Positions 24,054 to 34,529 of a DNA stretch of 64,000 nucleotides are shown in pieces. Position numbers and translations under genes: made by a program. The DNA comes from Stomatobaculum sp. F0698 (GTDB lineage: Bacteria > Bacillota > Clostridia > Lachnospirales > Lachnospiraceae). The DNA lies in NCBI RefSeq assembly GCF_030644385.1, contig NZ_CP130060.1, positions 1,240,001 through 1,304,000 on the forward strand, read 5' to 3'. The notes beneath the pieces were generated by a model. That model had not been told where the DNA came from. It saw only the letters and a program-made list of their open reading frames with translations, and ran no database searches. Position 1 is the first letter of the stretch. Every line of letters begins with the position of its first letter.

Positions 24054-24116
24054 AGGCAAAGATTCGATGAATCATCGAAGAAAGCAGGGATGAATTGATT
24101 GAGGGAGGCATGCGAT

Positions 24117-25142
24117 ATGAACGCATTGGCACTTGCTGAGGAGATTATTGCCGGACGCCGCTTACAGCGGGGAGATGAAGAGTTAACGGAGCTTTTGAGC
24201 ACGGATCTCGAAGAGCTCTGTCAAGCTGCGGATAAGCTCCGCGAAACCTATTGTGAAAACAAGGTGGATCTCTGCACCATTATCAACGGCAGAAGCGGCC
24301 GCTGCAGCGAGGACTGCAAGTACTGCGCGCAGTCCGCACACTCGAAGACCGGCTGTGAAGAGTATGCCTTTCTCCCGGAAGATGTGATTGTCGCAGCCGC
24401 AAAGGCAAACGAGCGCGAGGGCGTAGATCGCTTTTCGATTGTCACCTCCGGCCGCTCTCTCAGCGGCGAAGAATTCGAGCAGGCACTCGCTGCCTACCGC
24501 CGCATGGCCGATGAGTGTCGAATCGATCTCTGTGCTTCCCACGGTTTCCTGACGCGCGAGCAGTTCCACCGTCTGCACCTTGCGGGCGTCACGAGCTATC
24601 ACGACAACATCGAGACCTCGCGCCGCTTCTTCCCGGAAATCTGCACGACCCACACCTTTGACCAGAAGCTTGCGACCATACGCGCAGCCCAGGAAGAGGG
24701 ACTCTGCGTCTGTTCCGGCGGCATTATCGGCATGGGCGAAACCTGGGAAGACCGCTTGGATATGGCGCTGACGCTTGCGGAACTCGGCATTCAGTCCATC
24801 CCGATCAATGTGCTGATGCCGGTCAAAGGCACCCCGCTCGGCGAGCGGGAAGTGCTGAAGGACGATGAAATCCTCCGCACGCTTGCCATCTTCCGCATGA
24901 TCAATCCGGAGGCAAATATACGCCTCGCGGGCGGACGCTCCGCGCTCTCCGACAACGGTGCGCACAGCTTCTCCTGCGGCGTCAGCGCGACCATTACCGG
25001 AAACATGCTGACCACGAGCGGTTCTACGATTCAAGAGGACAGGGCCATGCTGAGCGCCATGGGAAGAGATGTGCAACCCGAGTGGCAGAAGCACTCCGTG
25101 CGCCCGAGCTGCTATGAGGCAGTGAAGAACATCGCCCAGTAA
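24117..25142 (+). CDS. bioB: Biotin synthase
   Basis: A 341-residue radical SAM enzyme inserting sulphur into dethiobiotin. The 4Fe-4S ligands are Cys63, Cys67 and Cys70 (GRCSEDCKYCAQS); the second-cluster ligands fall in the DLCASHGF and VTSYHDNIETS regions and the Arg/Asn of MINPEANIRLAGGRS are present. ATG at 24117 is chosen because GGGAGG lies eight bases before it; a TTG six codons earlier has no site. bioA, bioD and bioF are not in the window, so dethiobiotin may be scavenged or made elsewhere. Confidence 0.96.
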   Translation: MNALALAEEIIAGRRLQRGDEELTELLSTDLEELCQAADKLRETYCENKVDLCTIINGRSGRCSEDCKYCAQSAHSKTGCEEYAFLPEDVIVAAAKANEREGVDRFSIVTSGRSLSGEEFEQALAAYRRMADECRIDLCASHGFLTREQFHRLHLAGVTSYHDNIETSRRFFPEICTTHTFDQKLATIRAAQEEGLCVCSGGIIGMGETWEDRLDMALTLAELGIQSIPINVLMPVKGTPLGEREVLKDDEILRTLAIFRMINPEANIRLAGGRSALSDNGAHSFSCGVSATITGNMLTTSGSTIQEDRAMLSAMGRDVQPEWQKHSVRPSCYEAVKNIAQ

Positions 25143-26281: not shown

Positions 26282-26364
26282 TGCGGGAAATGGGACTTGA
26301 ACCCACACGGCTTGTGGCCACTAGATCCTTAGTCTAGCCTGTCTGCCAATTCCAGCATCCCCGC
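26282..26364 (-). tRNA. tRNA-Leu (anticodon AAG)
   Basis: An 83-nt class II tRNA on the minus strand: acceptor GCGGGGA pairs with TTCCCGC, anticodon stem CTAGA/TCTAG encloses CTAAGGA, giving anticodon AAG for CUU. The variable arm TGGCCACAAGCCG is long as in tRNA-Leu, and the T arm GTGGGTTCAAGTCCCAT is normal. CCA is not encoded; the discriminator is A. Own promoter and terminator. Confidence 0.93.
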
Positions 26365-27429: not shown

Positions 27430-28542
27430 TTATGACCGCTCCAATATTCCCTTCTCTTCCGCCCGTTCCCGCAGTTCAAGAAGAGCCGCATTTCCGCTCC
27501 CAAGCGGCGGCTCGGTCCAAATGACACAGTTTGCCGCTTCCAGGAAGGCTCTCGCCTCGCGGAGATTCTCCGCCGTGAGCGCTTCGTAAGGTGCCGTCTC
27601 AAACACCTTTGCAGCGAGACGAGACGCAACCGGGTAATCCGAATCGGCGGGGCTGAATACGCCTGCCGCAAAGGCTACCCCCTCACGCCGAAGCCGCCGG
27701 TAAACCGGTATGCCGCTACCGCCGCCGCCGAGCACGAGGGTGCTCGGCGAAGTGTTTTCCACGGCCTGTGGCAATTCCGCGCTGCCGGAGAGCGCATCGT
27801 AAGCGGAACCGAGCCCATAGATACGACGCATGTTCTCCTCGGAGAGTGCCTCCTCCGGTACGGCGGGCGGCAGCACCTTGCCGTCCGCCACCAGTAAGAC
27901 ACGGTCTGCACATTTCAACGCCAAATCCGGTTCATGCAGCGATAAGAAAACCGCGAGCCCTTCGCGGGTTGCAAGATCTCGCAACAGACTCAGAAGTTCT
28001 ACCTTATGGCGCAGGTCCAGAAAGGCCGTCGGTTCATCGAGCAGAATGAGCCGCGGTTCCTGCGCGAGTGCCCTTGCAAGCAGCACGCGCTGGCGCTGCC
28101 CGTCGCTGAGCTCCGCAAAAGGACGCGCCGCGAGCTCTTCGGTTCGCACATAGGCCATGGCACGCGCCACCGCCGTATGATCCGATTCCCGCAAGGTTCC
28201 GAAACGCCCCGTGTAGGGATAGCGACCCGCCTCCACCACTTCTCTCGCGGTGGCAAACTCCGGCTCTCTCCGCTCGGTAAAGAGGAGGGCCATATATGCC
28301 GCCCGTTCCCGACCGGTAAAGGACTGTAGATTTCTTCCGTCGAGGTAGATGCAGCCGCCCTGCAGGGCAAGCTGCCCCGCCGCGCTCTTTAAGAGGGTCG
28401 ACTTTCCGGCCCCGTTCGGACCGAGCAAGGCCATGACCTCGCCAGGGCGAAGCTCAAACGAGACCTCCGAGAGCACCACGCGCGCGCCGTAGCCCGTTTT
28501 GACCCCTTCTGCCGCGAGTTTTGCCCGCTGCGTATTCCGCAT
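27430..28542 (-). CDS. Iron/corrinoid ABC transporter ATPase with C-terminal extension
   Basis: A 370-residue protein. Residues 1-245 are a FecE/BtuD-type ATPase: Walker A LLGPNGAGKSTLLK, signature LSDGQRQRVLLARAL, Walker B RLILLDEPTAFLD, switch His in LSLHEPDLAL. Residues 265-370 form an extra Rossmann-like domain (STLVLGGGGSGIPVYRRL, VASRLAAKVFETAPYEAL, CVIWTEPPLGSGN). From memory, similar extensions occur on predicted cobalamin-transport ATPases. ATG at 28542 follows GAGGAG; the longer frame lacks a site. It completes the uptake system with the FecCD permease upstream. Confidence 0.88.
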   Translation of the reverse strand: MRNTQRAKLAAEGVKTGYGARVVLSEVSFELRPGEVMALLGPNGAGKSTLLKSAAGQLALQGGCIYLDGRNLQSFTGRERAAYMALLFTERREPEFATAREVVEAGRYPYTGRFGTLRESDHTAVARAMAYVRTEELAARPFAELSDGQRQRVLLARALAQEPRLILLDEPTAFLDLRHKVELLSLLRDLATREGLAVFLSLHEPDLALKCADRVLLVADGKVLPPAVPEEALSEENMRRIYGLGSAYDALSGSAELPQAVENTSPSTLVLGGGGSGIPVYRRLRREGVAFAAGVFSPADSDYPVASRLAAKVFETAPYEALTAENLREARAFLEAANCVIWTEPPLGSGNAALLELRERAEEKGILERS

Positions 28543-28599
28543 AGCTCCTCCTCTCGATACGCCCTCTGCTTGACAAGGCGTCACGGCGCTATCACGTCC

Positions 28600-28613
28600 G
28601 TTTGTATACAAAC
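28600..28613. promoter_or_regulatory. Perfect 14-bp palindrome before the ATPase gene
   Basis: GTTTGTATACAAAC in the 100-base gap between the small unknown gene and the ATPase gene. Candidate operator or internal regulatory site; regulator unknown. Confidence 0.4.
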
Positions 28614-28642
28614 TATATTGACGGTTTCCGATTTGATAACGA

Positions 28643-29035
28643 TTAGATACCGACTCTCAAGATCCATGCTTCGATATCCTCTATCGCCGTCTCCGTGGAA
28701 AGCGGAATTTGCGCCTCATTGTTTTCATCCACCAAGACCACTTCTTTTTCCTTCGGAAAGTACTGTCTGATCCATAAAATCAGGTTTGCGTAGTCTCGAA
28801 TTCTATCCGCAGAATTAAAATACTCCACCGCAAGCGTGCGGCGTGTTCGATCGAGCCTTAATTCAAACTGTGGGCAATCCGCATATCGGCTCCAAGTAAC
28901 ATCGTAGGCCAAAGACCTGCTTTGCCTCTGTTCCGTATCCGTTCCCGGATATTTTTTCTGAATCTCCTCACAGAACGTTTTGAGGTCAAATTCGCCGACT
29001 GTTTCGCTCAAATGTAAAAAGCTTGTGACCGACAT
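28643..29035 (-). CDS. Small hypothetical protein inside the transporter operon
   Basis: I do not recognise this 130-residue soluble protein. It has no signal peptide, a charged N-terminal helix (FDLKTFCEEIQKKYPGTD) and a mixed C-terminal part (ELRLDRTRRTLAVEYFNSADRIRDYANLILWIRQYFPKEKEVVLVDEN-type). ATG follows GGAGGGAAT. It lies between the permease and ATPase genes of one transporter in the same direction, 45 bases behind the permease; whether it works with the transporter is unknown. Confidence 0.65.
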   Translation of the reverse strand: MSVTSFLHLSETVGEFDLKTFCEEIQKKYPGTDTEQRQSRSLAYDVTWSRYADCPQFELRLDRTRRTLAVEYFNSADRIRDYANLILWIRQYFPKEKEVVLVDENNEAQIPLSTETAIEDIEAWILRVGI

Positions 29036-29080
29036 ATTCCCTCCGTGTATGATCCGAATCTCTGATTGGATGACTCTGTC

Positions 29081-30091
29081 TCATTTTCCCCGACGCTTCA
29101 CCAAGAGCCAAAGCACGATCGGCGCGCCGAAAAAGGAGGTCACCGTGCTGAGCGCAAGCTCGGTCGGCTGAAAGGCCGTCCTTGCGATTAAATCCGAGGC
29201 CAAACAAAATACCGCTCCCCCGAGGAAGGAAGCCGGCAGCACCAGCAACGGCTTGTTGCTCTTCAGTAGGCTCTGAATCAAAAACGGCGAAGCCACCCCC
29301 ACAAAGGAAACCGGCCCCGCAAAAGCGGTCACGGTCGCCGCAAGCAAACTCGCAAGGATAATGAGGGCGCTGCGCATGCGCCGCACATTCACCCCGAGGC
29401 TCTCCGCATAGCTCTCGCCGAGCTGCACCGCAGCGAGTGGCTTTGCGAGAAAAAGAAGCGCGAAGGCCGAGATCCCGATTAAGACGGCCGCTGTCCTGAC
29501 CTGTGCCAGGCTCATGCCGGAAAAACTGCCCTGTGACCAGCTGTGCAGGGACACAATCTCCGAATCCGCGGCAAAACTCAAGAGAAAATCGGTCGCGGCC
29601 GAGCAGATATAACCTATCATGATACCGGCCACCAGAAGTCCGGCCATCTGCCGCACACGCTGCGATACCGCGAGCAAAATGCCGAGAGATACCAGCGAGC
29701 CCAGAAAGGCAGCGAACACCAGCGCAAAGGAACTGAGTGCCCGGTTCTGTGCCATGAACAGCATCATGCAGAGCGCCACCGCAAGACGCGCGCCCGAGGA
29801 GACACCGAGCACAAAGGGACCGGCAATGGGGTTCGCAAAATAGGTCTGCAAGAGAAAGCCCGAGACCGCAAGCGCTCCGCCGAGGAGCAGTGCCATCAGG
29901 GCACGCGGCAGCCGTATCTTGAATAAGATGCTCACCGCGGGATCCGTGCCCTTCCCCTGTGACAACAGGGAAAACAGCTTTGCCGGAGAGAAAAACCTGG
30001 TACCCAGCGCCAGATTACAGTAAAAAAGTAGCAGGAGCAAGATGCCGAGCAGGATGAACACCGATGTCGTACGCCTTCTCCCCGTCCTCAT
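29081..30091 (-). CDS. FecCD-family ABC permease
   Basis: A 336-residue membrane protein with about ten hydrophobic segments. IRLPRALMALLLGGALAVSGFLLQTYFANPIAGPFVLGVSSGARLA is the conserved FecCD region; GFAGPVSFVG-like AFAGPVSFVGVASPF precedes the C-terminal helices. It forms the channel for iron-siderophore, heme or cobalamin. Start overlaps the binding-protein stop (ATGA), with TGAGGAGGATAGA as ribosome site. Partners: binding lipoprotein upstream and ATPase downstream. Confidence 0.92.
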   Translation of the reverse strand: MRTGRRRTTSVFILLGILLLLLFYCNLALGTRFFSPAKLFSLLSQGKGTDPAVSILFKIRLPRALMALLLGGALAVSGFLLQTYFANPIAGPFVLGVSSGARLAVALCMMLFMAQNRALSSFALVFAAFLGSLVSLGILLAVSQRVRQMAGLLVAGIMIGYICSAATDFLLSFAADSEIVSLHSWSQGSFSGMSLAQVRTAAVLIGISAFALLFLAKPLAAVQLGESYAESLGVNVRRMRSALIILASLLAATVTAFAGPVSFVGVASPFLIQSLLKSNKPLLVLPASFLGGAVFCLASDLIARTAFQPTELALSTVTSFFGAPIVLWLLVKRRGK

Positions 30092-31683
30092 TCTATCCTC
30101 CTCAGGTAGGAGAGCCCGCGTTCCTCTTCCCCGTGCAAGACACGCGAAAAATCACGTGTCAGTCCCGCGACCGCATCGGCTGACTGGTACATGTCACTTC
30201 CGAGTTGATAGACCTGTTTCTCCCGCACCGCCTTAAAGTCCGAGAAGAGCTCATCCTTCTCGAGCAGCTCCGAAAGGCCGGCAAGCGGCGCTTCCACCGT
30301 GGCATTGTATACAAGCACATCCGCATCTCTCGCCGCCTCAAAAAAAGCCTCGCGCGAGACGCGCTGCACGGAACTGCGCCCGGGTTCATCCGGTCCGACA
30401 CCAAGATACGTTCCGCCTGCCAGAGCTATCATCTTCGGCACATAGTCCGTGCGGCGACGCACCACAAAGCTCCCGTCCCGATTCATGGCGAAAAAGGCCA
30501 CCTTCTTGCCGCTATCCGCTACGTTTTTGAGCCCGTCCAGTTCATCGCACTGGGCCTTGAAAAAGGCATCCGCCGCCTCGCTCCTGTCGTTCAAAACGCC
30601 GTAAAGCCGCACCCACTCGGTGCGCCCGAGCGGATGTCCTTCGTTACTCGAGTAATCCACAAAGACGGGAATCCCGAGTCGCTCAAACATCTCCTTCACT
30701 TCCGGCGCGTGCAATATCATCAGAGATTCGATCGCCAGATCACAGCCCTCCGAAGTGAGGAGTTCGTAATCCGGCGCGCTGTATTTTCCGGCAAAGCGCA
30801 TCGCCCCGCTTTCAAGCGCACGCTTCGGCGCGTCGATATGCCATCCCTCCGCTCTCGTACCGGTAAAGCGCACGCGGTCCAGCGCACCGTTTGCTTCAAA
30901 GAGACTCATCGCTGCGGTGGCAGCAAGGTAAATATTGTCGAGCGGCTTTTTCAGAATCACATAGTCTGCGGGCAGCTCCGCTGGGACTTGTTCCCCTTCC
31001 GGAACCAACAGATAGCGTGCCGCGCCGTGCACATCGATGACGGCGAAGTCCCGCTCATAAAAATAGATGTCAAAGGTCTCCGCATAGCGCAGTTCCATTC
31101 GCTTAACAAAGCGCAGCCCCGGAATCTCCGGAGCTGCCGCCTGACTTGCCTCTTCAGCTTTTACATCTGTCACCTTGACCATATGGTCATACCAGGCCCC
31201 CTTGGTGCCGACGAGGGCAAGCGGAAACTCTGTGTCGAGCGCCGGGACCGGAATATCGAAGCCGTAGACCTCAGCGCTTGTACCGTCCTCATACTTGACG
31301 GTATCGGTTGTCGGCTGCAACAGCGCCGCTCCTTCTTTCCGCGCATCTTCCGCGGTCCCGGGGAAGAGATTGAGGATGCGCTTTGACTGCAGGGAGACAT
31401 GAAGGGTCATCTTCCCGTCTTTTACGGTCAGAGTTCCCCTGTCGTTCAGCGCCTCGTTCACATGGAACATGGAGCTGTCGGTCTCAAAGCGCGCCGTGTA
31501 TATACCGTCCGGCAGTGCTGCCTGTGCCTTGCCGCTCTCCGAAGCGCCGCTCTCTGCTGCGCTCGTCGTCTCCTGAGCTCCGCTTTGCTCTGCCTTTCCG
31601 CTCCGCGCGGCACAGCCCGTTGTCAGTAAAACCGCCGTCAGTAGGAGCGCAAGTTGCGAAATCCATCTGCCTCGTCTCTTCAT
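30088..31683 (-). CDS. Substrate-binding lipoprotein with N-terminal NEAT-like domain
   Basis: A 531-residue lipoprotein (lipobox LLTTGCAAR). After a Ser/Ala/Glu linker, residues 57-180 resemble a NEAT domain (LPDGIYTARFETDSSMF, GTLTVKDGKMTLHVSL, DIPVPALDTEFPLALVG). The C-terminal 300 residues are a class III periplasmic binding fold of the BtuF/FepB type (LLTSEGCDLAIESL, GIPVFVDYSSNEGHPLGRTEWVRLYG, ALAGGTYLG). ATG at 31683 gives the proper signal peptide; a TTG at 31710 overlapping the previous stop is an alternative. Such fusion of a NEAT-like and a binding domain suggests capture of heme, corrinoid or another tetrapyrrole for the FecCD permease. Confidence 0.85.
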   Translation of the reverse strand: MKRRGRWISQLALLLTAVLLTTGCAARSGKAEQSGAQETTSAAESGASESGKAQAALPDGIYTARFETDSSMFHVNEALNDRGTLTVKDGKMTLHVSLQSKRILNLFPGTAEDARKEGAALLQPTTDTVKYEDGTSAEVYGFDIPVPALDTEFPLALVGTKGAWYDHMVKVTDVKAEEASQAAAPEIPGLRFVKRMELRYAETFDIYFYERDFAVIDVHGAARYLLVPEGEQVPAELPADYVILKKPLDNIYLAATAAMSLFEANGALDRVRFTGTRAEGWHIDAPKRALESGAMRFAGKYSAPDYELLTSEGCDLAIESLMILHAPEVKEMFERLGIPVFVDYSSNEGHPLGRTEWVRLYGVLNDRSEAADAFFKAQCDELDGLKNVADSGKKVAFFAMNRDGSFVVRRRTDYVPKMIALAGGTYLGVGPDEPGRSSVQRVSREAFFEAARDADVLVYNATVEAPLAGLSELLEKDELFSDFKAVREKQVYQLGSDMYQSADAVAGLTRDFSRVLHGEEERGLSYLRRIE

Positions 31684-31706
31684 CTTCCCTCTCCGGGCAC
31701 AGACAC

Positions 31707-32990
31707 TCAATTTGCCTTGGTCTCTGCCGCCGTTGTCTCTTCTGCCGCCGTGTTTGCCGCGTTAATGGCCGCCTGTGTATGCTCCGCATAGAGCTTCTGG
31801 ATGTCGTAAACACCGCCCAAGCCCTCAATCTGCGTCTCGATGCGATCAAAACTCTTCGAGTTCATGAACTTCTGAACCCAGGAATCCTCCTCCGCACCCG
31901 CCATATCGTTGTGTGCGTGATCGCCGGCAACGACCATCATCGGACGAATCGTGACCTTCTTATAGCCGCCCTTCTTCACCGCATCGATGACTGCTCCGAC
32001 AGCGGTCTCTTCCGGCTCGCCCTCTACGGTGCCGATAAACACGTTTGCATAGCCGAGCTTCTTCATTGCGGTCTGCATCTCGGAATAGCTGACAGCTGCG
32101 GTGTGCGAAGTGCCGTGGCCAAGGAATACAAAGGCCACACCGTCCTGCGCTGCCTTCTGCACACTGTCAAAGCCGCCGCCCGTGACAGTTGCCTGCACAA
32201 TGAGATTTGCGACTCTCTCCTTGTCCGCATTCACATCCTCGGCATCCTTGCCGACCTCGCCGAGCAGCGGCTCCGCGAGTTCCAGCTTCTCAAAAGAAGC
32301 CTTGTGCTTGTCGAGCGTCTCCTTCAGCTCATCGTACTCCTTGCCCTTCATGAGATGCGTAGGCTGCACAATGAGTTCCTTCACACCGTTCTTCTTGGCG
32401 CGCTCCAGCGCCTGCTCCACATTGTCGATCTTCTCACCGTCACGCGCGAGAATGTGATTCAAAATAATCTGCGAGGTAAACGCGCGGCGCACACTGTAAT
32501 CCGGGAATGCCTTTGCAAGGTAACCCTCAATGCCGCCGATATCCTTTGCGCGGCTGTCGTTATAGGAGGTGCCGAAGCTCACAACCAGGATTTCCTTCTC
32601 ACCGATTTCGTCCTGATTGCGCGGGTCATCCTTGCTCACATCTCCGGTGTCCAGACCGAAATATTCCGGTGAAGCGTGCTCGCCGCTCACCTCTGCCTTT
32701 GCACTGTCGCTCAATGCGTCCCAAGCCTCCTTTGCCTCTTTGCAGAGCCGCTCCGTGTCCTCAGACCACTGCTGCACGTAAATCGCATCAATCTTCTTGC
32801 CGACTTCCGCTGCCTGCGCCTTCTCCTCGTCCGTCGCAGGCGCCAGGGTGGTGGGCTCGGTCGCCTCGGTCGCAGCCGTCTCCTGCGTCGCTTCCGTTGC
32901 GATGGTCTCCTTACCCTTGTCCTTGCCGCCGCAAGCACTCACGGCCAGCGCAGCACCCAGAATCAAAACCGCCAACTTTGCCTTTCTCAT
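31707..32990 (-). CDS. CbiK-type sirohydrochlorin cobaltochelatase, predicted lipoprotein
   Basis: A 427-residue protein of the anaerobic cobaltochelatase family but with a lipoprotein signal (AVSACGGKDK) and a Thr/Glu linker. The chelatase domain starts at about 130: EILVVSFGTSYNDSRAKDIGGIE, TSQIILNHIL, VQPTHLMKGKEYDEL, the metal-site motif FLGHGTSHTAAVSY, GTVEGEPE and VVAGDHAHNDMAG, including the His residues and Glu that bind cobalt in CbiK. CbiK normally inserts cobalt into sirohydrochlorin in the cytoplasm; here it is outside the membrane, as in the periplasmic CbiK of Desulfovibrio. ATG follows GGAGGGCGTT. It sits between two NEAT-like proteins in a riboswitch-linked locus. Confidence 0.88.
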   Translation of the reverse strand: MRKAKLAVLILGAALAVSACGGKDKGKETIATEATQETAATEATEPTTLAPATDEEKAQAAEVGKKIDAIYVQQWSEDTERLCKEAKEAWDALSDSAKAEVSGEHASPEYFGLDTGDVSKDDPRNQDEIGEKEILVVSFGTSYNDSRAKDIGGIEGYLAKAFPDYSVRRAFTSQIILNHILARDGEKIDNVEQALERAKKNGVKELIVQPTHLMKGKEYDELKETLDKHKASFEKLELAEPLLGEVGKDAEDVNADKERVANLIVQATVTGGGFDSVQKAAQDGVAFVFLGHGTSHTAAVSYSEMQTAMKKLGYANVFIGTVEGEPEETAVGAVIDAVKKGGYKKVTIRPMMVVAGDHAHNDMAGAEEDSWVQKFMNSKSFDRIETQIEGLGGVYDIQKLYAEHTQAAINAANTAAEETTAAETKAN

Positions 32991-33032
32991 AACGCCCTCC
33001 TGCTTTTCTCTTGTTCCGACTGATTTTGTGGC

Positions 33033-33647
33033 TTATTCGGCCACTTCAAACGTGAGCTGATAGTCGATTGCATGCGGCTTACTCATCGCGGTCGTATCTC
33101 CGACAACGTTTTGCGGCGCACCGAGCTCGGTGACAGGAATCACAAAGACCGAATGACCGTTTTCGATATTCGGCGTAAAACGGATTCCATCCACTTCCAT
33201 GTAGTCGTACTTGTCACTGCTCCAGACAATCTTTGCCGTTGCTCTGCCGTCCTTCACCGTGAGCTCGGTCGGACTTGCAATCTTTGCTCTGCCGCTGCCG
33301 CCCGCAAGCGTTACATTGACCTCGTAGACACCGTCCGCAAGACTCAGCTTCTCGTGCTTGTCCGCAAGCATCTGTGCCGCTGCATCCGCCTGTGCCTGAA
33401 GCTCGTCCGTCGCCTTAAAATCGGCCGCCTTAAAGTCCGCAATCGCCTTGGCCCCTTCGGAAGCTGCGCTCTCTGCCGCGCTCTCGCCCGCGGAAGATGC
33501 CGCGGATGCTGCGCTCTCAACAGCCGAACTTGCGGTCTCAACGGCCGAAGCCGCCTGACTCTCCGCCTTCTTGCCGCCGCAAGCCGTCATCGAAATCGCG
33601 GCCAAAAGGCCCATTCCCAATGCAAACGAATAGACTCTCTTCTTCAT
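33033..33647 (-). CDS. NEAT-like domain lipoprotein
   Basis: A 204-residue lipoprotein (lipobox SMTACGGKK), a long Ala/Ser/Glu linker (about 30-100) and one domain (about 101-204) with the NEAT-like pattern LADGVYEVNVTLAGGSG, LTVKDGRATAKIVWSSDKYDYMEVDG, VFVIPVTELGAP, and PHAIDYQLTFEV. It resembles the N-terminal domain of the binding protein at 30.1-31.7 kb, suggesting a relay that hands ligand to the transporter. YDYMEVDG carries Tyr/Met as possible ligand contacts. Ligand (heme or corrinoid) unproven. Confidence 0.78.
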   Translation of the reverse strand: MKKRVYSFALGMGLLAAISMTACGGKKAESQAASAVETASSAVESAASAASSAGESAAESAASEGAKAIADFKAADFKATDELQAQADAAAQMLADKHEKLSLADGVYEVNVTLAGGSGRAKIASPTELTVKDGRATAKIVWSSDKYDYMEVDGIRFTPNIENGHSVFVIPVTELGAPQNVVGDTTAMSKPHAIDYQLTFEVAE

Positions 33648-33691
33648 ACAATACCCTCTTCCTCTGTTTGATTCAATCCTCTTCTACCAAT

Positions 33692-33728
33692 AAAAAGAGG
33701 CCCGTCCTTTCGGAGAGCCTCTGGCTTT
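33692..33728 (-). terminator. Terminator behind the Ala-rich lipoprotein gene
   Basis: On the minus strand AGAGGC, loop, GCCTCT, then TTTTTA. Its sequence resembles the hairpin at 34241-34276 on the other side of the same gene. Confidence 0.75.
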
Positions 33729-33743
33729 TCAGCAAATCCTTAC

Positions 33744-34169
33744 TTATCTGGACTCAGCAGTCTCGCCAGCCTTCTCAGCTGCCGCACCTGCGCTCTCAGC
33801 CGCTGCGCCTGCCTTCTCAGCCGCCTCTGCGCCTGCCTTCGCTGCATCCTCGCCCATCTTAGCCGCATCGGAAGCTGCCTTGTTTGCGCCTTCCACTGCT
33901 GCGGAAGCTGCATCCTGGCCCGCCTTCGCTGCGTCGGAAGCTGCCTTGTTTGCCTCTTCCATCGCGCCGGAAGCTGCCTTGTTTGCCTCTTCCATACCGC
34001 TGGAAGCCGCTGCGTTTGCACTCTCCACCATGCTGGAAGCTGCGTCAACCGCCTCGGAAGCAACGTCGGAAGCTGCCTTGGTCTCTTCCTTCTTGCTGCC
34101 GCAACCGGTTGCAAGAACCGCTGCAAGTGCCGCTGCCGCCAAAATTGCTCCAAACTGTCTCTTCTTCAT
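33744..34169 (-). CDS. Ala-rich helical-repeat lipoprotein
   Basis: A 141-residue lipoprotein (lipobox VLATGCGSKK). The mature part is almost wholly Ala, Glu, Lys, Ser and Gly in repeats like EEANKAAS and AAEKAGAAAESAG, predicted as a long amphipathic helix or coiled stalk. No enzyme motif. It is the first gene behind the cobalamin riboswitch, and a terminator follows, so it may be the main product of that transcript. ATG at 34169 follows GGGAGGATACTATT; the longer frame is rejected. Function unknown; perhaps a surface spacer or scaffold. Confidence 0.75.
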   Translation of the reverse strand: MKKRQFGAILAAAALAAVLATGCGSKKEETKAASDVASEAVDAASSMVESANAAASSGMEEANKAASGAMEEANKAASDAAKAGQDAASAAVEGANKAASDAAKMGEDAAKAGAEAAEKAGAAAESAGAAAEKAGETAESR

Positions 34170-34240
34170 AATAGTATCCTCCCTGTGTGACAATATTGTC
34201 GCCTTATTGTAGCACAATACCGATAAAAAGCCAAATAAAA

Positions 34241-34276
34241 CAAAGAAAAGAGGCTCGTCTTCGCAGAGAGCCTCTT
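34241..34276 (-). terminator. Riboswitch-linked terminator
   Basis: On the minus strand AGAGGCTC, 11-base loop, GAGCCTCT, then TTTCTTTG. A palindrome GAGGCTTAAGCCTC at 34292-34305 between it and the aptamer could act as an alternative pairing partner. Confidence 0.8.
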
Positions 34277-34354
34277 GCTATCACGCAAAGAAGAGGCTTA
34301 AGCCTCCTCCTCGCGTTCCCGCACAGGCACTCGTGCACAGGAAGGTACTTAAAA

Positions 34355-34505
34355 GGCAAGGCCGGTCTCCCGGCTCGCGGATCTATGTCCCCTGTCTGCC
34401 TTCCCGCTTTCGCAGTGACAGACGGACTCCCCGCATACGGTGACGAGTTCGCGCAGTTTTACTTGCTTCCCGATTATCCCGGCATCACACCGGGCACCTT
34501 GCCCT
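34355..34505 (-). ncRNA. Cobalamin riboswitch aptamer
   Basis: On the minus strand the stem GGGCAAGG closes with CCTTGCC. Inside are GGTGCC, the ATCGGGAAG element, the ACTCGTCACCGTATGCGGGGAGTCC core, GTCACTG, GGGAAGGC and the B12-box region GAGCCGGGAGACCGGCC, in the order of known cobalamin riboswitches. It lies directly behind the eno stop and before the Ala-rich lipoprotein. With the terminator downstream it fits transcriptional repression by a cobalamin. Confidence 0.88.
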
Positions 34506-34529
34506 TGTTTTTCAATGTTCCGAATCGAA

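Follow-up and report, generated by a model that had tools for sequence, protein, structure and literature searches.

A riboswitch-led surface locus with an exported CbiK chelatase in Stomatobaculum sp. F0698, a candidate system for salvage of the B12 ring precursor

How can a bacterium complete vitamin B12 when its genome keeps the corrin genes and gives no match for the genes that make their precursor? The question is raised by a tetrapyrrole locus of Stomatobaculum sp. F0698, which lies on the minus strand of a 64,000-nucleotide stretch (the window; positions 1,240,001 to 1,304,000 of contig NZ_CP130060.1) of a 2.15-Mb single-contig genome. In this locus a cobalamin riboswitch precedes genes for NEAT-fold lipoproteins, an exported lipoprotein of the CbiK chelatase family and an importer of FecCD/BtuCD type. 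Many gut and rumen Clostridia appear to possess such a B12-controlled, cobalt-inserting surface enzyme with ring-binding proteins beside an importer, and the purpose of the system is probably the scavenging of a ring precursor of B12 which many of its hosts, it seems, cannot make. The reading we prefer, with a probability of roughly one half (0.52), is a B12-repressed precursor salvage, in which cobalt would be inserted outside the cell into a scavenged ring of the sirohydrochlorin type, the product imported and B12 then completed.

It is the gene content of the host that lends the system its meaning. The genome contains CbiF, CbiH, CbiG, CbiD, CbiJ, CbiE, CbiT, CbiC, CbiA and CbiP, with CbiJ, CbiE and CbiT as a fusion, together with CobT, CobD, BtuR and a CobS-like protein. 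HemB, HemC, HemD and CobA were searched for in this genome (HemA and HemL were not among the queries), and the first three gave no match. Its tetrapyrrole methylases are four, namely CbiF, CbiH, CbiE and RsmI, and no fifth was found, from which it follows that CobA and CbiL are absent; a separate search for CbiL in the genome gave no match as well. Tetrapyrrole precursor salvagers have been defined as a class (PMC6461909); the host lacks the early precursor genes (HemB, HemC, HemD, CobA) as such salvagers do, and it departs from a complete corrin ring pathway by the missing CbiL. As a separate observation, its CbiG is fused to a CobU-like C-terminal domain (L198:7651-9057, that is G000:C1:1357650-1359056, G000 being the host).

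Layout and conservation of the locus

The features of the locus, in the order of transcription, are as follows.

34343..34516, minus strand: cobalamin riboswitch aptamer RF00174, 85.5 bits, with B12 box AGCCGGGAGACCGGCC
34248..34276, minus strand: terminator-like hairpin 1 with a U-rich run (fold prediction, z -3.7 for the 81-nucleotide piece)
33744..34169, minus strand: Ala-rich lipoprotein, ATG at 34169 after GGAGG (the program-listed open reading frame begins at TTG 34217)
33696..33722, minus strand: terminator-like hairpin 2, a near-copy of hairpin 1 (fold prediction, z -1.0 for the 91-nucleotide piece)
33033..33647, minus strand: lipoprotein with a NEAT-fold domain, here called lipoN, with an invariant HxxxY in the last strand
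31707..32990, minus strand: CbiK lipoprotein, exported (lipobox cysteine Cys20); residues 132-409 form the chelatase domain, which includes H292, E323 and H358
30088..31710, minus strand: lipoprotein with a second NEAT-fold domain, NEATn (about residues 64-185), and a periplasmic-binding domain (PF01497 at 264-506); likely start at ATG 31683 (by eye)
29081..30091, minus strand: FecCD-type permease, PF01032
28643..29035, minus strand: 130-residue protein with no family match
27430..28611, minus strand: ABC ATPase with a C-terminal extension, aligning to the PRK09536 corrinoid ATPase model over 36-373

The aptamer scores above the RF00174 gathering score of 31.5 bits, its B12 box stands at 34375 with no mismatch, and a genome-wide scan of the host gives the window copy as the only match of this family. 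A preliminary description, made from the letters of the stretch, had claimed a cobalamin-type aptamer with a terminator ahead of several lipoproteins, one of the CbiK family and one with a periplasmic-binding domain among them, and of a FecCD permease and an ATPase with an extra domain; the Rfam match, the hairpin with its U-rich run (by fold prediction) and the family matches of the proteins bear this out. It had also held that a missing riboswitch match or a missing conserved neighbourhood would speak against the idea, and both are found to be present.

Conservation was examined in a near set of 61 genomes (the host and 60 relatives) and in a GTDB genome scan, which returned at least 595 CbiK relatives; the loci of the best 80 were kept for the counts out of 80 given here, and by title these are Lachnospiraceae, Ruminococcaceae or Oscillospiraceae, other Clostridia, or just 'Firmicutes' or 'Bacterium'. 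In the near set CbiK is found in 33 of 61 genomes and its exported form in 18. Of these 18 exported CbiKs, 17 have a NEAT domain next to them, 14 a binding protein and 13 a FecCD gene downstream. Gene order was counted in the 65 of the 80 loci with at least 6.5 kb downstream, where NEATn occurs in 64, lipoN in 61, the periplasmic-binding protein, FecCD and the ATPase in 57 each, all five in 55, and one or more B12-synthesis genes downstream in 37. In 74 of the 80 loci a B12 box occurs in the 1.5 kb before CbiK, with four further matches in 1.307 Mb, and Infernal identifies RF00174 in 14 of 17 exported-CbiK loci scanned, the misses being L063, where CbiK begins the contig, L133 and L164.

The link with corrin synthesis is also visible in gene runs and fusions. 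In G010 the run consists of CbiK, NEATn, lipoN, the binding protein, FecCD, an ATPase fused to CbiD, CbiFG, CbiH, CbiJ, CbiE/T, CbiA and CbiC (the last two by eye), and in G006 the order is riboswitch, lipoN, cbiJET, cbiA, CbiK, NEATn/binding protein, FecCD, ATPase, CobT, CbiP, CobD and CbiC. By picking of open reading frames, CbiK is fused to NEATn in 27 of the 80 loci, the ATPase and its extension share a single frame in 20, and a fusion of the ATPase with a corrin enzyme occurs in 14 (CbiP 11, CbiD 2, CbiE-T 1), one fusion of each of these three kinds being confirmed by Pfam. An unusual order is seen at L061 (G004), with a FecCD-type permease upstream of the exported CbiK and CbiF after the binding protein. 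In other relatives an ABC ATPase is fused to CbiK in a CbiO-CbiK-like manner (L033, L035, L036), which would suit a system mainly for cobalt import with the tetrapyrrole as carrier, and B12 riboswitches control cobalt transporters too; such a cobalt capture leaves the link with missing HemB and the NEAT domains unexplained, and it is the least probable of the explanations that we weigh.

The exported chelatase and the NEAT-fold lipoproteins

The window CbiK passes PF06180 with 243 bits against a cut-off of 26.2, and lies below the cut-off of the NCBIfam equivalog SiroCoChCbiK (185 of 400 bits). A lipobox is present in it and in 72 of the 80 homologues, which does not agree with the cytoplasmic location of CbiK; of the other eight, seven have a signal-like N-terminus and one is cut by the contig start. 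Its closest solved structures are FetB (9b86), which is the top PDB match, is named heme-binding and is taken by us to be IhtB of Porphyromonas gingivalis, then Salmonella CbiK (1qgo) and CbiKP of Desulfovibrio vulgaris (2xvx), the last presumably periplasmic. Residues H292, E323 and H358 of the window protein align to H154, E184 and H216 of CbiKP, which thus has the same three residues, and to H145, E175 and H207 of Salmonella CbiK, positions that we understand to be metal ligands in the known CbiK structures; together with H212 and E218 they are conserved in 80 of 80 homologues.

In CbiK trees of 49 and of 33 rows the exported clostridial proteins form one clade (support 100/99), which also contains two non-exported members, L037 and L044, whereas CbiKP groups with FetB under a long-branch warning. 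A single origin of the clostridial exported CbiK with FetB of P. gingivalis was rejected by the approximately unbiased (AU) test with p 0.002, the same long-branch warning applying to FetB and CbiKP, so export of the chelatase seems to have arisen separately. Ahead of the chelatase domain, residues about 60-125 look helical by eye and contain one Cys (TxxxCxxAK). This Cys is kept in 10 of the 10 alignment rows that have the region, the nine others being 55-84% identical to the window protein, and as an extracellular free Cys it could serve as a ligand of cobalt or of the ring, as far as the sequence suggests. CbiK of the window is the sole PF06180 match above cut-off in the host genome. A possible second copy was rejected: the other match has 18.4 bits, below cut-off, and its 493-residue frame is not chelatase-like by eye; no search was aimed at CbiX.

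As for the small domains, both lipoN and NEATn have the NEAT fold, at scores in the window proteins below the PF05031 cut-off (NEATn 18.5 of 32.8 bits, lipoN no match). The usual heme-ligand motif of NEAT domains is YxxxY, which is not seen in lipoN or NEATn; invariant in the last strand are instead HxxxY in lipoN and WYxH in NEATn, at an approximate structural register. A profile comparison of the two domains aligned over a linker only and is thus silent on their kinship. Two further architectures were noticed in relatives, a single 889-residue frame with a NEAT domain flanked by two CbiK domains (L166:9001-11670), and a 1595-residue frame downstream of an exported CbiK with several NEAT-like segments and a periplasmic-binding match (L119:13260-18047; no Pfam match at 0.001).

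The NEAT fold of both domains and FetB as the best structural match of CbiK would fit heme or iron acquisition, in which the NEAT proteins bind heme, CbiK removes the iron and the importer takes up heme or iron. This is not our first choice because of the cobalamin riboswitch in front, the runs and fusions with corrin genes and the co-occurrence with CbiD described below, and the replaced ligand motif argues in the same direction; the heme alternative has little support, and we hold it to be very improbable. NEAT domains usually bind metallated porphyrins, which would also suit a metal exchange, in which the exported CbiK strips iron (or zinc, nickel) from siroheme-like complexes of lysed cells and then inserts cobalt. 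Demetallation by CbiK is not known to have been demonstrated. A reverse-chelatase role is discussed for IhtB (PMC10913741), and on balance the exchange appears quite improbable.

Distribution of the system and weighing of its reading

The distribution of the exported CbiK follows that of the corrin pathway. CbiD is found in 32 of the 61 near-set genomes, in all 18 with an exported CbiK versus 14 of the 43 others (Fisher p 4e-7), and no exported CbiK was seen among the 29 CbiD-less relatives. HemB is absent in 11 of the 18 exported-CbiK genomes versus 2 of the 14 CbiD-positive genomes without exported CbiK (p 0.012). Among 50 genomes chosen from the best 80 loci, HemB is absent in 34, which comprise 12 of the 21 whose titles suggest isolates and 22 of the 29 records of metagenome type; as G076 is the same genome as G033, the joint exported-CbiK set comprises 67 genomes, of which 45 lack HemB.

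The sharpest distribution result is the split of a second, non-exported CbiK against HemB. Within the 18 near relatives, such a copy is carried by 5 of 7 HemB-positive and 0 of 11 HemB-less genomes (p 0.0025), the carriers being G017, G019, G031, G033 and G016; in G016 the copy is a fragment assigned by similarity, without which p is 0.011. The second CbiK of G031 belongs to the exported clade although it is not itself exported, and G008 and G035 are HemB-positive with the exported copy only. The split thus indicates that cells able to make the ring mostly keep an inside chelatase, while those unable to make it have only the outside one.

These results bear directly on the possibility that the system is a corrinoid importer, in which the exported CbiK has turned into a protein for binding or handling corrinoids and the cargo, taken up under B12 control, is complete or late corrinoids. 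The importer proteins score above the cut-offs of PF01497, PF01032 and PF00005 and are of FecCD/BtuCD type, a class with periplasmic-binding protein and ATPase that carries B12; the extension of the ATPase can be aligned with a corrinoid ATPase model, the late-step genes CbiP-CobT-CobS are often directly next, and CbiL would not be required. The scores stay below the B12 equivalogs (BtuC 201.5 of 334, PRK09536 225.4 of 537, BtuD 107.9 of 281 bits). Three points stand against corrinoid import. No exported CbiK was seen in the CbiD-less relatives, although these would depend most on taking up B12; the metal-site residues are invariant in 80 of 80 homologues; and a second CbiK that tracks HemB is not expected if the exported protein only binds. 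We keep corrinoid import as a rival reading and consider it unlikely.

Several observations weigh against precursor salvage with insertion outside. In the window a terminator-like hairpin stands between the riboswitch and the core genes, and 4 of the 18 exported-CbiK near relatives (G001, G002, G016, G017) are without binding protein and permease in the stretch fetched. RF00174 is found also in 4 of 5 non-exported-CbiK loci scanned (L033, L035, L036 and L037; not L034), so the riboswitch does not set the exported form apart. In G014 (L060, 3921-9690) a non-exported fusion of CbiK to CbiL stands beside a riboswitch-led run of binding protein, FecCD, ATPase and cbiC/D/F/G/H, in a genome without HemB and HemD matches and with a weak HemC match of 28 bits; an importer homologue beside such a CbiK means that outside insertion is not obligatory for this transporter, which may also serve without an exported chelatase. 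The HemB association is weak by itself, since per genus HemB is lacking in 5 of 12 against 2 of 14 (p 0.19, not significant); two HemB-less genomes, G002 (82%) and G029 (60%), are incomplete, the 50 genomes from the best loci come without completeness figures, and HemB is present in 22 of the 67 hosts.

The CbiL gene raises a further difficulty. With CbiL counted as present at a near-full-length match of at least 131 bits (G015, G017, G062 and G096 being below the curated cut-off of 163.25), it is missing in 21 of 45 HemB-less and 5 of 22 HemB-positive hosts, the window genome included (p 0.07). As CbiL would use cobalt-sirohydrochlorin, the simple entry point fails in those hosts; either the imported ring is already C20-methylated, or CbiH or an unknown enzyme substitutes, or the pathway is decaying, or the gene lies outside a draft assembly. 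Two genomes show another pattern: G001 (G001:C36) has HemC, HemD and CbiL matches with no HemB match, and G006 (G006:C14, L106) has HemC, a CobA-HemD fusion, a SirC-like protein and CbiL, likewise with no HemB match. Both are possible porphobilinogen salvagers, or HemB was missed or replaced in them.

Proposed route and known systems

Under precursor salvage, low B12 would let the riboswitch permit reading of the operon, and a tetrapyrrole of the sirohydrochlorin (isobacteriochlorin) type, present in free form, would be picked up by the surface NEAT-fold lipoproteins. Cobalt would then be inserted by the membrane-anchored CbiK, still outside the cytoplasm. The binding protein would deliver the resulting complex to the FecCD/ATPase importer, and corrin enzymes in the cytoplasm would complete B12. 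HemB-less hosts, the present one included, would have no other source of the ring; HemB-positive hosts would use the system in addition to a de novo route, for which the second, non-exported CbiK usually serves. The preliminary description had proposed an outside-the-cell tetrapyrrole route with cobalt insertion (or removal) under B12 control; with insertion, such a route agrees well with the riboswitch, the metal-site residues, the export signals and the corrin-gene runs and fusions, while the ligand and its binding, cobalt insertion, insertion before import and transport of the product are what we infer.

A wider scenario may tentatively be drawn. Metal insertion for B12 might be extracytoplasmic in many gut and rumen Clostridia, perhaps in hundreds of species, with a dedicated surface machine building a cobalt-isobacteriochlorin from a ring leaked by neighbours and importing it; the entry compound would be cobalt-factor II where CbiL is kept, or a C20-methylated factor III where CbiL is lost, and the same logic, separately evolved, might explain B12 without precorrin-2 in P. 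gingivalis.

With regard to known systems, the closest layout to the window locus is that of Iht of P. gingivalis (IhtA-E), which also combines a CbiK-like surface lipoprotein with a periplasmic-binding protein, a permease and an ATPase (PMC10913741, in part). Its host resembles ours too, as corrin genes are present and precorrin-2 synthesis is lacking (PMC4410737). Iht differs in that it is proposed for iron removal from heme and has a TonB receptor, a NEAT domain being unmentioned in the available portion of PMC10913741, and in that its chelatase falls outside the clostridial exported clade (AU p 0.002, with the long-branch caution). The earlier claim of no described system of exactly this make-up needs qualifying, because Iht is of similar make-up; in the open-licence literature we found no description combining CbiK, NEAT and riboswitch, nor of this operon. 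Heme uptake of the Isd/Hbp type shares NEAT-fold surface proteins and, for Isd, a FecCD-type importer, whereas the window locus is preceded by a B12 riboswitch, includes a chelatase gene and shows an altered ligand motif. BtuFCD corrinoid importers share the importer class and B12 riboswitch control; the window system differs from them by its exported chelatase and NEAT domains and by the presence of CbiD in all 18 near-relative hosts.

Species with a corrin pathway and no precursor synthesis are thus on record, P. gingivalis being an example, and PMC6461909 treats them as a class whose members likewise lack the early precursor genes; in the portion of PMC6461909 at hand three 5-aminolevulinic acid salvagers are tested and no system for uptake of the ring is named, nor did we find one named elsewhere in the literature consulted. 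The present locus offers a concrete and widespread candidate for such a system, with a natural contrast in G014, where the chelatase is inside. If the reading is true, early B12 intermediates would be traded in gut communities, biosynthetic metal insertion could be moved outside the cell, and NEAT domains would be used beyond heme. What is more, corrin genes taken by themselves can be a misleading predictor of B12 production. For six strains whose B12 phenotypes were inconsistent, PMC6593275 tentatively blames missing precorrin-2 genes.

Some minor features of the window remain. An additional strong hairpin is located at about 34287-34312, between the aptamer and hairpin 1. The Ala-rich lipoprotein gene is lineage-specific and outside the conserved core; together with hairpin 2, which stands between it and the core operon and whose 91-nucleotide piece is unexceptional by its z value, it occurs also in the sister genome G005 (locus L059), where the 130-residue protein has its only counterpart. 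A simple terminator scan of the region listed neither of the two terminator-like hairpins, both of which come from fold predictions. One promoter-like site lies ahead of the Ala-rich gene (1 found versus 0.3 expected) and is not used as support. Beyond the locus there are a tRNA-Leu (aag) at 26282-26364 and, by eye, a biotin-synthase-like open reading frame at 24099-25142.

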